DNA of 64,000 bases from Gelidibacter salicanalis (lineage in GTDB: Bacteria; Bacteroidota; Bacteroidia; Flavobacteriales; Flavobacteriaceae). The DNA lies in contig NZ_VORX01000002.1 in the NCBI RefSeq assembly GCF_007997285.1, positions 434,001-498,000 on the forward strand. Direction: 5' to 3'. The position numbers and the translations under genes are program-made. A model generated the notes under the pieces. The model was not told the DNA's origin, did not search any database, and saw nothing but the letters and a program-made list of their open reading frames with translations. Of the stretch, positions 3,472-37,326 are shown one piece after another. The first letter of the stretch is position 1; every line of letters begins with the position of its first letter.

Positions 3472-3548
3472 CCCTCAACCCTCAACCCTCAACCCTGAAA
3501 CCTCAAACCTCAACCCTCAAACCTCAACCCTCAACCCTCAACCCTCAA
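3472..3548. repeat. Heptamer tandem repeat CCCTCAA (11 units)
   Basis: Eleven uninterrupted 7-bp units fill exactly 77 bp. CCCTCAA alternates with ACCTCAA and one CCCTGAA. It lies in the same 227-bp gap as the GAGAAAA array and ends 47 bp before the acetyltransferase start. No gene or promoter box is visible in the remainder of the gap. Confidence 0.9.
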
Positions 3549-9915: not shown

Positions 9916-9917
9916 GC

Positions 9918-10090
9918 CATTGTTGGTGTTTTCCGCCATTGTTGGTGTTTTCCACCAACAATGAAACGCCCTTGTTTGTGTTTTCCACCAACAATGAAAG
10001 TGCAAAACTCCGCCATTGTTGGTGTTTTCCACCAACAATGCATCACAACCTTGTTTGTATTTTCCACCATCAAGAAAAGTGCAAAACTTT
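9918..10090. repeat. 77-bp tandem repeat containing perfect 27-bp palindromes
   Basis: Two 77-bp units start at 9937 and 10014, with a partial unit at 9918. Each begins with a perfect palindrome, arms CATTGTTGGTG and CACCAACAATG around TTTTC (9937-9963 and 10014-10040). Each continues with a second, imperfect half-copy (TTGTTTGT...TTTTCCACCA). The block starts 3 bp after the CBS stop. Transcripts would fold into strong hairpins. Confidence 0.85.
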
Positions 10091-14341: not shown

Positions 14342-14596
14342 CATGAGTGTCCGGTAAAAATAAAAAACAAACAACAAACGCATTTAAAGCATGAGACATT
14401 ACGAGAGTTTCAAAATGACACCTTGCTTTTACAAACTATTTCTACTGAGAGTGTTTGGATGATTTTAATTTAAATGATCGTTGTTTGTCAGTTAGTTGCA
14501 AGTAAATCCCTGCCTGCTGGTGGTCAGGTTTGTTCTTTCCCGATAGCTATCGGGACTAGAAGCGCAGCGGTCTTGATTCTTTATCGAACAACAATG
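14342..14596 (+). mobile_element. MITE-like element, diverged single copy
   Basis: A 255-bp non-coding element bounded by CATGAGTGTCCGGTAAA (14342-14358) and TTTATCGAACAACAATG (14580-14596), imperfect terminal inverted repeats of the family also seen at 29208-29957 and 37095-37317. The interior shares CATTTAAAGCA, ATTTTAATTTAAATGATCG and TTGTTTGTCAGTTAGTTGCAA with those copies. It carries two extra palindromes near its right part (a CCTGCC...TCAGG block and TCCCGATAGCTATCGGGA at 14538-14555). No open frame inside. No exact target duplication remains. Confidence 0.8.
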
Positions 14597-28855: not shown

Positions 28856-29125
28856 TTATTTTCTTAATCCTAATTCCTTAACAATAGCACGATATCTTAA
28901 GACATCTTTCTTAGTTAAATAGTCGAGCAAAGAACGACGCTTTCCTACTAATTTTACTAAAGAACGCTCTGTGTTATAGTCTTTACGATTCTTTTTTAAG
29001 TGTCCTGTTAAATGATTGATTCTGTAAGTAAACAGAGCGATTTGCCCTTCTGCAGAACCTGTGTCTTTTGCACCTTTACCGTGTTTGGTAAAGATTTCTT
29101 CTTTTTCTTTTTGATCTAAATACAT
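28856..29125 (-). CDS. rpsO: 30S ribosomal protein S15
   Basis: An 89-residue protein of exactly the usual length when started at ATG 29125 (MYLDQKEKEEIF); an upstream in-frame extension to 29182 would run across the promoter box. Motifs are KHGKGAKDTGSAEGQIALFTYRI, HLKKNRKDYNTER, LVGKRRSLLDYL and the C-terminal RYRAIVKELGLRK. It binds the central domain of 16S rRNA, nucleating the platform of the small subunit. It has its own promoter and terminator, with pnp downstream. Confidence 0.97.
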   Translation of the reverse strand: MYLDQKEKEEIFTKHGKGAKDTGSAEGQIALFTYRINHLTGHLKKNRKDYNTERSLVKLVGKRRSLLDYLTKKDVLRYRAIVKELGLRK

Positions 29126-29179: not shown

Positions 29180-29187
29180 CAAATATA
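29180..29187 (-). promoter_or_regulatory. Putative -7 box TATATTTG of rpsO
   Basis: Reads TATATTTG on the minus strand, 55 bp before the rpsO ATG. The -33 region would fall on the border of the tandem MITE array that begins at 29208. Confidence 0.55.
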
Positions 29188-29207
29188 GTAATTATTATAT
29201 TATGAAT

Positions 29208-29451
29208 CATTGTTGTGCGATAAAGAATCAAGACCCTGCCTCATCGGCAGGCAGGCGCTGTGCTGTTAGAATAAAGAATTAAGACTTGTTTGCAACTAAC
29301 TGACAAACAACGATTATTTAAACTAAAATCGCACATTCCCTCTCGGTAGAAACAGTTTCTAAAATGCAAGGTCTCATCTCGGAAATCTTCTAATATCCCT
29401 TGCTTTAAATGAGTTTGTTAATTTATTATTTATTTTTATCGGACACTAATG
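29208..29451 (-). mobile_element. MITE-like element, array copy 1
   Basis: A 244-bp non-coding unit. Ends are CATTGTTGTGCGATAAA (29208-29224) and TTTATCGGACACTAATG (29435-29451), near-perfect inverted repeats. It is flanked on the left by ATTATGAAT (29199-29207) and on the right by the identical 9-mer (29452-29460). It contains a 21-bp CCTGCC...GGCAGG-type palindrome absent from the copy at 37095. No frame longer than a few dozen codons. Confidence 0.88.
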
Positions 29452-29460
29452 ATTATGAAT

Positions 29461-29704
29461 TATTGTTGTGTGATAAAGAATCAAGACCCTGCCTCATCGG
29501 CAGGCAGGCGCTGCGCTGTTAGAATAAAGAATTAAGACTTGTTTGCAACTAACTGACAAACATCGATCATTTAAATTAAAATCGCACATACGCTCGCGGT
29601 AGAAACAGTTTCTAAAATGCAAGGTCTCATTTCGGAAATCTTCTAATATCCCTTGCTTTAAATGAGTTTGTTAATGTATTATTTATTTTTATCGGACACT
29701 AATG
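29461..29704 (-). mobile_element. MITE-like element, array copy 2
   Basis: Second 244-bp unit, exactly 253 bp after the first. The first base of its repeat is T instead of C (TATTGTTGTGTGATAAA). It is followed by the same 9-mer ATTATGAAT (29705-29713). Only scattered substitutions separate it from copies 1 and 3. Confidence 0.88.
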
Positions 29705-29713
29705 ATTATGAAT

Positions 29714-29957
29714 CATTGTTGTGCGATAAAGAATCAAGACCCTGCCTCATCGGCAGGCAGGCGCTGCGCTGTTAGAATAAAGAATTAAGACTTGTTTGCA
29801 ACTAACTGACAAACAACGATCATTTAAATTAAAATCGCACATGCGCTCGCGGTAAAAACAGTTTCTAAAATGCAAGGTCTCATTTCGGAAATCTTTTAAT
29901 GCACCTTGCTTTAAATGAGTTTGTTAATGTACTATTTATTTTTATCGGACACTAATG
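29714..29957 (-). mobile_element. MITE-like element, array copy 3
   Basis: Third 244-bp unit, again at 253-bp spacing, ending TTTATCGGACACTAATG. The right flank is ATTATGTAT (29958-29966), one mismatch from the 9-mer separating the other copies, so it looks like the outer target duplication. The remaining 117 bp before the histidine kinase gene show no recognisable signal. Confidence 0.88.
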
Positions 29958-30083
29958 ATTATGTATAATGGTCGATCCCTAATTTTGAGTGCTATTGAAT
30001 TAGTTTATTGGATACAATTTGTCGCCATTGCGTTAACTATTAAAGGCATAGTTGTCTATTTTTGGGGCTGATCCCTCACTCTC

Positions 30084-31235
30084 ATGCCCTCACATTTAGT
30101 AGCTATTAAGCATACCCTTTTTGAAAACATTTTTAACCATGCCCCTAATGGTATAGCTGTAATGGGGTTGGATTTTAGATGGATTAGAGTCAATCAGAGT
30201 TTGATGGATCTTTTGGGATATTCTGAAGATGAGTTTTATGCCATGACGTTTCCTGATATCACGCATAAGGATGACATTTATAGTGATAAGGAACAGCTGG
30301 GACAATTGTTAAACGGTACTATTCAGAGGTATCAAATAGAGAAACGTTATTTCCATAAAACAGGTAAATTAATTTGGGTCATCTTATCAGTCTCCTTGGA
30401 GATTTCCGAAAATGGGGTGCCACTTTATTTCGTAATTCAAACAAATGATGTGACACGGCAAAGGGAAATGCTGATTCAGATGACTGCTTTTACCACGATT
30501 GCCAATATTCAAAATGAACGGTTGAAAGATTTTGCACACATTGCTACTCATGACCTCAGAACCCATCTTGGCAATTTAGGAGTGATCACTGATTTTATGC
30601 AAGAGGATTTACCTGGGATAGCGCAAAATGATAATTTTATGATGCTTAGGGAAGCTTTGTCGCAATTGGAAAGCACTATCACGGATCTTAATGAGGTCAG
30701 AAATTCTGATTTTGGGGCGCAAGAACAAACGCTCAATCTAAATTTAAGGGAATTTGTAGACAATTCCATTTATAATATAAACGCCATTGCCTTACATCAA
30801 AAATGCCACATTATTAACCAGGTCAGTGACTCTTTTAATGTGTTGGGGATTCCGGTATATTTAAATAGTATCATTTTAAACTTGTTAACCAACGCTATAA
30901 AATACAGTTCTAAAGAGCGTTCCTCATACGTACAGTTGTCCAGTAAGATTGTGGACGATTTTGTTGTTCTGGAGGTTAGTGATAATGGTTTGGGGATTAA
31001 CATGGAGGCGCATCGGCATGAGCTGTTCCAGTTTCAGAAAACTTTCCATCAAAGTGCAGATTCGAGGGGCATAGGCTTATTTATCACCAAAAATCACGTG
31101 GAGAGTATGGGAGGGCAGATAACGGTTGAAAGTCGGGTAAATGTGGGCACTACTTTTAGAGTGTTTTTCAGAAAAGCTCCTCCAAAAGGTAGAGGTTTAC
31201 ATAAAAAAAAGCCACACGCTCTAGAACATGAATAA
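30084..31235 (+). CDS. PAS-domain sensor histidine kinase (orphan)
   Basis: A 383-residue soluble kinase with no transmembrane segments. A PAS domain spans about residues 10-130 (NGIAVMGLDFRWIRVNQSL, RYFHKTGKLIWVILSVSLE). The dimerisation/phosphoacceptor domain has the H-box THDLRTHLGN near 153-162. The ATPase domain has the N-box LLTNAIKYS near 271, the G1 box VSDNGLGI near 304 and GIGLFITKNHVESMGG near 335. The H-box has Thr-His in place of the usual Asn/Arg-Pro. No response regulator lies adjacent. It is convergent with accD, and its 3' end overlaps the accD terminator stem. Signal and partner unknown. Confidence 0.9.
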   Translation: MPSHLVAIKHTLFENIFNHAPNGIAVMGLDFRWIRVNQSLMDLLGYSEDEFYAMTFPDITHKDDIYSDKEQLGQLLNGTIQRYQIEKRYFHKTGKLIWVILSVSLEISENGVPLYFVIQTNDVTRQREMLIQMTAFTTIANIQNERLKDFAHIATHDLRTHLGNLGVITDFMQEDLPGIAQNDNFMMLREALSQLESTITDLNEVRNSDFGAQEQTLNLNLREFVDNSIYNINAIALHQKCHIINQVSDSFNVLGIPVYLNSIILNLLTNAIKYSSKERSSYVQLSSKIVDDFVVLEVSDNGLGINMEAHRHELFQFQKTFHQSADSRGIGLFITKNHVESMGGQITVESRVNVGTTFRVFFRKAPPKGRGLHKKKPHALEHE

Positions 31236-36227: not shown

Positions 36228-36953
36228 ATGTTGACCAAGAATCAAATAAAATTAATTACGAGCCTCGCACAGAAAAAACAACGCTCAAAACATCAGTTAT
36301 TTACTGTGGAAGGTGTAAAAGCTGTAGAGGAATTTTTAAAATCCTCCTATATCTTAGAGCATCTGTATGCGACGACCGACAATTTTGAGGTGAACCCTGA
36401 ACGTTTTAGCCTGATCACAGCCGCTGAACTGAAAAAAATTAGCGGATTGACCACCGCTCAAGAAGTGCTGGCCGTTTTCAAAATTCCAAACCCCAAAAGC
36501 GTGTCTACAGAGCGATTGATTGTCGCTTTAGATGCCGTACGCGACCCTGGGAATTTAGGCACTATCATTAGACTTTGCGATTGGTTTGGTGTGGAACATA
36601 TCGTCTGTAGTGATACGACGGTAGATTGCTTTAATCCTAAGGTGGTGCAAGCCACTATGGGCTCATTAACCCGAGTACATGTGCATTATCTGGATTTGCC
36701 AGCGTTTTTAGAAAATACTAAGGTTCCAAAGTTTGGAGCATTTATGGATGGTGCGAACGTTTACGACATAAAATTGCCAAAAAATGGGATCCTGATTATG
36801 GGGAATGAAGGCAGTGGCATATCTCCTGAAATTGAAGAATTGATATCAGAGCGCTTGAGTATCCCCAGTTACAGCGTACACCAATCGACTGAAAGTTTGA
36901 ACGTGGCCACAGCGACGGCAATTTTGTTAAGTGAGTTTAGGAGGAGGGGTTAG
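36228..36953 (+). CDS. TrmH-family (SPOUT) RNA 2'-O-methyltransferase
   Basis: A 241-residue SpoU-class enzyme. An N-terminal substrate-binding domain (residues about 1-75; QLFTVEGVKAVEEFL) is followed by the knotted SPOUT domain. Motif 1 is ALDAVRDPGNLGTIIR, motif 2 is LIMGNEGSGIS, and motif 3 is SIPSYSVHQSTESLNVATA. It methylates a ribose 2'-OH of rRNA or tRNA using SAM; the exact site cannot be read from the sequence. ATG 36228 is preferred to the TTG at 36225. The gene ends directly at a heptamer array whose first unit contains the stop codon. Confidence 0.93.
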   Translation: MLTKNQIKLITSLAQKKQRSKHQLFTVEGVKAVEEFLKSSYILEHLYATTDNFEVNPERFSLITAAELKKISGLTTAQEVLAVFKIPNPKSVSTERLIVALDAVRDPGNLGTIIRLCDWFGVEHIVCSDTTVDCFNPKVVQATMGSLTRVHVHYLDLPAFLENTKVPKFGAFMDGANVYDIKLPKNGILIMGNEGSGISPEIEELISERLSIPSYSVHQSTESLNVATATAILLSEFRRRG

Positions 36954-37013
36954 GAGTGGGGAGTTAGGAGTGAGGAGTGAGGAGTTGGGAGTGAGGAGTG
37001 AGGAGTGAGGAGT
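36951..37013. repeat. Heptamer tandem repeat GAGGAGT (9 units) at the trmH stop
   Basis: Nine 7-bp units (TAGGAGT, GGGGAGT, TAGGAGT, GAGGAGT and variants), 63 bp in total. The first T-A-G is the trmH stop codon, so the array begins inside the gene end. Confidence 0.9.
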
Positions 37014-37085
37014 GAGGTTTGCTTATAATGATTTAGTCTTATTGGCGCTTTTTTATAGAAAATTACGTCAAATTTTGGCTGAATG

Positions 37086-37326
37086 TTTTAGAATCATTAG
37101 TGTCCGATAAAAATAAATAATAAATTAACAAACTCATTTAAAGCAAGGGACATTAGAAGATTTCCGAAATGAGTCTTTGCATTTTAGAAACTATTTCTAC
37201 CGAAAGCGCATGTGCGATTTTAATTTAAATGATCGTTGTTTGTCAGTTAGTTGCAAACAAGTCTTAATTCTTTATTCTAACAGCGCAGCGGTCTTGATTC
37301 TTTATCGGACAACAATGTTTTAGAAT
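37086..37326. repeat. 9-bp target site duplication flanking a MITE-like element
   Basis: TTTTAGAAT occurs at 37086-37094 and 37318-37326, immediately outside the element at 37095-37317. With four more bases (AATG) the match extends to 13 bp if the element end is taken slightly shorter. Confidence 0.8.
37095..37317 (+). mobile_element. MITE-like element, single copy with target duplication
   Basis: A 223-bp element with ends CATTAGTGTCCGATAAA (37095-37111) and TTTATCGGACAACAATG (37301-37317). The ends are inverted repeats matching at 15 of 17 positions. The interior matches the array copies at 29208-29957 closely, except that it lacks exactly the 21-bp palindrome after GCGCAGCG. Flanked by a direct 9-bp duplication, which shows it arrived by transposition. 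No coding capacity. Confidence 0.88.

Follow-up and report, generated by a model that had tools for sequence, protein, structure and literature searches.

Three copies of a 244-bp MITE lie head to tail, in one orientation and with a period of 253 bp, between rpsO and a divergent sensor histidine kinase gene of Gelidibacter salicanalis. We attribute this array, with a probability of roughly 0.6, to one insertion of the MITE followed by local tandem duplication, and favour this reading over stepwise re-insertion of further elements. The array is found at positions 29208-29957 of the window, i.e., the whole stretch of 64,000 nucleotides that was analysed. Copy 1 (29208..29451, plus strand) has the left end CATTGTTGTGCGATAAA and the right end TTTATCGGACACTAATG; copy 2 (29461..29704) and copy 3 (29714..29957) are also on the plus strand and also 244 bp long. 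The 9-mer ATTATGAAT precedes copy 1 (29199..29207), separates the copies (29452..29460 and 29705..29713) and returns downstream of copy 3 as ATTATGTAT, with one base changed (29958..29966). Tandem Repeats Finder reported the repeat at 29199-29963 with a period of 253, 3.0 copies, 95% matches and a score of 1404, the top score among its 15 rows in the window. The copies differ from each other by substitutions only, without change of length: 11 per 244 between copies 1 and 2, 14 between copies 1 and 3, and 10 between copies 2 and 3. None of the listed open reading frames of at least 60 aa lies within the array. The original prediction of three noncoding 244-bp elements with a period of 253 bp and 9-mer spacers was thus confirmed by the coordinates and by Tandem Repeats Finder, and the predicted one-base deviation of the right flank was found as well. 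Inverted ends, which had also been claimed, are present in each copy, but the left end of copy 2, TATTGTTGTGTGATAAA, deviates, so that the left ends are not identical across the array.

The unit belongs to a dispersed family. When the array was compared by BLAST with the genome that carries it, a draft of 3.78 Mb in 24 contigs, scoring of 40 of the 95 candidates gave at least 39 other places, end fragments not counted, and 39 single copies were retrieved with their flanking sequence for comparison. With the array counted in, the genome has at least 48 copies. The ends of the family are 17-bp imperfect inverted repeats, forms of CATTGTTGTCCGATAAA on one side and of CATTAGTGTCCGATAAA on the other. 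A genome-wide search for them with up to two mismatches, as had been proposed, returned 112 occurrences (55 forward and 57 reverse) as opposed to 2 for a reversed control pattern; the ends of the array are therefore not a product of chance. The 9-bp target duplication is perfect in 28 of the 39 single copies, and in 34 of the 39 eight or nine of the nine bases agree. As the family makes 9-bp duplications, the interpretation of the 9-mer as a target-site duplication holds. The identification of the elements as MITEs is likewise upheld by their size of 244 bp, the absence of listed open reading frames of at least 60 aa, the 17-bp inverted ends and the dispersed copies with target duplications. 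In the 34 duplications the target is A+T-rich and near-palindromic with ATTTTAAAT as the most frequent bases; positions 1, 2, 8, and 9 are A in 25, T in 26, A in 29 and T in 27 of them, respectively.

The single copies are mostly shorter than the array copies: 28 of the 39 are 223 bp long and 4 are 244 bp long. The shorter copies are without a 21-bp hairpin segment, which the array copies have in common with L009, L010, L011, and the diverged copy L046. A search for this segment found eight places, namely the three array copies, these four copies and the 53-bp end fragment L050. Six more diverged copies are 72-82% identical to copy 1 (L053, L054, L056, L057, L062, and window 14342-14596); the last of these, 255 bp long, shows no clear duplication. 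Another copy in the window (37095-37317, 223 bp) is flanked by a perfect 9-bp duplication, TTTTAGAAT. In one of the 39 single copies, L038 (246-468; G000:C8:88945-89167), the interior is inverted relative to the distinguishable tips, as if it had been flipped by recombination or conversion between the inverted ends. Inversion has been reported for Correia elements in a review (PMC10969869).

Related sequences were found in all eight congeneric genomes, the longer matches showing 69-78% identity. In one congener (G008:C1:640055-640265) four short matches of 30-37 bases to one MITE segment are clustered on one strand; part of a related element may be repeated there. There is no Rfam family for the MITE itself; of seven Rfam matches only the S15 leader described below reached its gathering score. 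Folding of the MITE RNA gave z values of -2.6 for the plus strand and -1.6 for the minus strand, as expected from the inverted ends. Among 80 PNPase loci scanned for MITE ends, a single end was seen in one.

The MITE is a putative derivative of an IS4-family (IS4Sa-like) insertion sequence, as judged from its ends, the length of its target and a 1385-bp element of a congener. The subgroup IS4Sa is described in PMC2266710 (with its Table 1) by the ends CA------T, duplications of 8-10 bp and a length of 1150-1750 bp. The ends of the MITE, CATTGTTGT... and CATTAGTGT..., start with CA and have T at position 9, and its duplication is 9 bp long. The assignment to this subgroup was made by features (ends, duplication, element length and Y-R-E-K spacing) and not by a tree. 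Elements of 1380-1385 bp in related genomes have the ends of the MITE, which itself, unlike IS4Sa, is without a transposase gene; a search of its genome gave no such transposase either. Three of these elements, L168 (1380 bp), L169, and L170, have similar ends and 9-bp duplications that are perfect in the first two and agree at 8 of 9 bases in the third. The transposase of L168 matched the NCBIfam model transpos_IS4_1 with an E value of 3.5e-61, and the Y-R-E-K spacing could be read in it by eye. The congener G001 gave five matches to apparently one element, and both copies compared, L194 and L199, are 1385 bp long. Compared with the consensus ends of the MITE, L199 agrees at 17 of 17 positions on one side and at 16 of 17 on the other; L194 differs at the last base, and the transposase of this element is 50% identical to the L168 protein. 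Beyond the ends, only short matches connect the MITE and the 1380-1385 bp elements. In L194 and L199 the two flanks of each copy do not match, and the left 9-mer of one is the right 9-mer of the other (GTTCTAAAT), suggesting recombination between the copies or mis-assembly.

The search for the DUF4372 domain found it in 13 of 149 genomes of the bacterial family and gave no match in the genome of the array, and the L168 transposase protein had no match there either. The sole match to PF01609 (DDE_Tnp_1) in this genome, C19:410996-411565, lies about 350 bp from a MITE copy (L020) and was rejected as parent: it is a 241-aa remnant that resembles IS1182-type transposases and looks unrelated, and the only matching ends nearby are those of the MITE. 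No other transposase was recognised by eye in the lists of open reading frames of 15 regions, which comprised the PF01609 match and the single or unpaired ends among the matches listed. The MITE family thus appears orphaned in its own genome; a gap of the draft could hide a parent. We infer that the MITE was mobilised in trans by an IS4-type transposase.

On the minus strand next to the array the gene rpsO for ribosomal protein S15 is encoded (28856..29125; TIGR00952, E 1.2e-30). It is preceded by an intact S15-Flavobacteria ribosomal leader, RF03161 (29123..29187, minus strand), which scored 73.5 bits against a gathering score of 46.5. In a paper on ribosomal leaders S15 is given as the most likely ligand of this leader and rpsO as its only gene, with a question mark in the last column (PMC7247131). 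The presumed rpsO promoter has the -7 box TATATTTG (29180..29187, minus strand), situated 62 bp before the start codon. It has the form TAnnTTTG, the flavobacterial -7 consensus according to PMC9723704, and occurs as TAT[AC]TTTG in all eight congeners. On the other side of the array a divergent gene for a PAS-domain sensor histidine kinase (30084..31235, plus strand) is located, which adjoins rpsO in 8 of 8 congeners. The start codons of the two genes are 187-338 bp apart in these congeners as opposed to 958 bp here, and we therefore conclude that the array is absent from this site in all eight. The comparison of copy number at the locus in close genomes, which the original prediction had proposed, accordingly gave zero copies in each of the eight congeners.

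The same comparison points to where the element entered. The half-site ATTCAT is found 20 bp upstream of the -7 box, with the same spacing, in six of the eight congeners (L185-L190; not L184 and L191). In the genome of the array the 20 bp upstream of the -7 box begin with the left 9-mer in complementary form, ATTCATAAT, and the MITE starts exactly there. Since ATTCAT is kept at the same spacing in the congeners, the left 9-mer looks ancestral and the right one mutated. As the half-site lies 20 bp upstream of the -7 box in the congeners, the array also splits the presumed rpsO promoter just upstream of the S15 leader RNA, adding 759 bases 20 bp upstream of the -7 box. A TTG at -33 was recognised by eye neither in the congener form nor in the array form of this region. 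As everything beyond the first 20 bp upstream of the -7 box has been replaced, an effect on rpsO transcription is plausible.

To trace the descent of the three copies we compared them with the single copies. The analyses of private states, distances and the tree were run without L038 because of its inverted interior, and the mean pairwise distance, but no other measure, without L045-L047; neither the private-state test nor the tree included the six diverged copies or the fragment L050. The alignment of the array copies, which had been suggested together with a measure of divergence, shows 10-14 differences per 244 positions (about 4-6%). The mean pairwise difference of 35 single copies is 3.6% (SD 1.5%), and that of the array copies is 4.1-5.7%. 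Judged from their 10-14 differences per 244 positions, the array is not fresh. The claim that such an array may expand and contract found no backing, as the divergence of 4-6% somewhat exceeds the single-copy mean of 3.6% and gives no sign of recent turnover.

By raw distance the array copies are not mutually closer than they are to copies elsewhere. Copy 1 shows 7 differences to seven single copies (over at most 223 bp) as opposed to 11 to copy 2 and 14 to copy 3, and copy 2 shows 8 to L014 as opposed to 10 to copy 3 and 11 to copy 1. Copy 3, which is nearest to copy 2 (10 differences), is the only array copy whose nearest relative is an array neighbour. A greater similarity to elements elsewhere had been named as an outcome that would speak against a single insertion; taken literally, this is what was found for copies 1 and 2, and it is the shared derived states described next that rescue common descent.

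As distances among star-like copies say little about descent, we counted shared private substitutions. A G at position 10 of the left end is found in 3 of 3 array copies and in 0 of 39 single copies, and is thus a shared derived change that is absent from the other copies. In the control a private substitution common to all three members occurs in only 8 of the 8436 triples that 38 single copies can form, and six of the eight include the old, diverged copies L045-L047. The neighbouring copies 2 and 3 have two further private substitutions in common; among single copies 2 of 703 pairs share at least two, both among L045-L047. In a maximum-likelihood tree with 41 rows the three array copies are placed on one branch with a support of 64/76 (found in 63% of 200 bootstrap trees); the support for grouping copies 2 and 3 is 94/91. 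Two observations qualify this picture. First, alignment column 203 has A in copies 1 and 2 and in one single copy but not in copy 3, which conflicts with the grouping of copies 2 and 3 unless copy 3 reverted or was converted. Second, C has also become G at position 10 of the other end of the diverged copy at C15:67090 (L053), so that the change can recur. Taken together, the substitutions argue with moderate, not strong, weight for one founder that was duplicated twice, the last duplication giving rise to copies 2 and 3. The predicted single insertion is hence backed by the empty site in 8 of 8 congeners and by the shared private substitutions, whereas the modest support in the tree (64/76) weakens it.

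We propose the following course of events. A 244-bp MITE, moved in trans, would have inserted once in the rpsO promoter region and duplicated its 9-bp target ATTATGAAT; the insertion itself is shown by the 9-bp duplications of the family together with the unoccupied site in the congeners. The unit of MITE plus 9-mer would then have been duplicated twice in place. Slippage during replication, or an illegitimate exchange involving the two 9-mers, may account for the first duplication, and unequal crossing-over between the 253-bp repeats for the later one. Such a process would leave n elements in one orientation with n+1 nine-mers, and the duplications would be old enough for 4-6% divergence. As the -7 box and the S15 leader are intact, rpsO probably keeps its own transcription start, with a MITE end in place of the former upstream sequence. 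Equal orientation, equal register and sister copies as neighbours, which are predicted by slippage and crossing-over, are all seen. For tandem arrays of full-length MITEs in corals, replication slippage is the explanation given by the authors (PMC2872659). Outside this array no junction of the type end-N9-end was found in 397 genomes of the bacterial family with up to three mismatches (four of them of this genus, the own genome included); this absence is weak evidence. Against a single founder it has to be said that the common descent of all three copies hangs on one substitution.

The anatomy of the array could also have been reached by stepwise re-insertion, an unlikely course that nevertheless deserves to be weighed. 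Further MITEs, probably daughters of the first by local hopping between sister chromosomes, would have entered the duplicated 9-mer, each adding a 9-mer. Because ATTATGAAT fits the near-palindromic target of the family, the duplication recreates a favoured target. The geometry would not differ either: if a daughter of copy 1 re-inserted into the 9-mer, the anatomy would be that of a tandem duplication. However, the same register would have been required twice, as would the same orientation (one in four if orientation is random), and no other end-N9-end junction was found in this genome, with its at least 48 copies, or in 396 other genomes of the bacterial family. The left-end G10, moreover, lies within the presumed transposase-binding repeat and is there in none of the 39 single copies. 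A more far-reaching version appears improbable to us, namely a 'self-targeted stacking' of the element in register on its own 9-bp duplication, by which the stack would have replaced the -33 region and the strength of the rpsO promoter would depend on the MITE end and the copy number.

We consider it very improbable that selection maintains the array for a tuning effect of its copy number, or of a MITE end, on rpsO or on the divergent kinase gene. The site of insertion would suit such a role, as it falls in sequence that six of eight congeners conserve and lies 20 bp from the rpsO -7 box, on its upstream side; rpsO also has its own leader RNA. Each copy also carries one terminator-like hairpin on the strand towards rpsO (3 as opposed to 0.4 expected in shuffles), its T run being weak. 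That no -33 TTG was recognised by eye in either version speaks against this idea. The array has eight sigma-70-type matches as opposed to 4.2 expected, but the consensus behind them is unsuited to this phylum, and the scan was judged uninformative. Nor is there a hint that the array copies are constrained: they carry 6, 9, and 10 changes from the family consensus, whereas 28 of the 38 single copies carry at most five.

Still less credit is due to three independent insertions of different family members at one favoured site: the raw distances would fit, seven single copies being nearer to copy 1, and one nearer to copy 2, than the respective array neighbours are, but the private G10 in all three copies, the two more private states in copies 2 and 3, and the same orientation and register argue against it. 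Hardly credible, finally, is an assembly artefact: the assembly is a draft of 24 contigs, but a false duplication is unlikely with 10-14 substitutions between the copies; a larger array of near-identical units may be collapsed.

The arrangement preferred here, one insertion and subsequent tandem duplication, was compared with repeats described elsewhere. The coral CMITE arrays of piggyBac-type MITEs (PMC2872659) share with the present array full-length MITEs standing head to tail with similar inter-element sequence. They differ in their eukaryotic host, TTAA target and unrelated transposase type, whereas the present array is found in a bacterium and has a 9-bp target duplication, IS4-type ends and a location in the promoter region of a ribosomal gene. 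BOX of Streptococcus pneumoniae (PMC3049150) and BrickBuilt of Porphyromonas gingivalis (PMC4596501) are likewise small bacterial repeats with tandem-repeat content. In BOX, however, the internal boxB module and in BrickBuilt a 23-nt unit is repeated inside one element, whereas the repeated unit of the present array is the complete element, both ends included, with the target duplication in between. In the tandem insertion of ISPsy19 and MITEPsy1 in Pseudomonas syringae (PMC3189936) a bacterial MITE stands in tandem with another element; these are two different elements side by side and not repeated copies of one MITE. A full-text literature search of partial coverage found no case in bacteria of complete MITEs arranged in tandem with their own target duplication as spacer, and a word search of a 2024 review of prokaryotic MITEs (PMC10969869) found neither 'tandem' nor 'head-to-tail'. 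The parts of the array, an IS4-type MITE family, a 9-bp duplication and a tandem duplication, are ordinary; their arrangement is uncommon. The array would represent a natural case of a single insertion turning into a tandem repeat, and of a ribosomal gene that tolerates 759 added bases starting 20 bp upstream of the -7 box. These statements refer to one locus in one genome, and any function is putative.

Other tandem repeats in the window are of a different make. At 9916-10088 nested tandem repeats with periods of 19, 33, and 79 are built of CCATTGTTGGTGTTTTCCACCAACAATG-like inverted units. Two heptamer arrays were also seen: CCCTCAA is repeated 11 times at 3472-3548, and AGGAGTG is repeated 11.4 times at 36939-37017, directly beside a 223-bp MITE copy.
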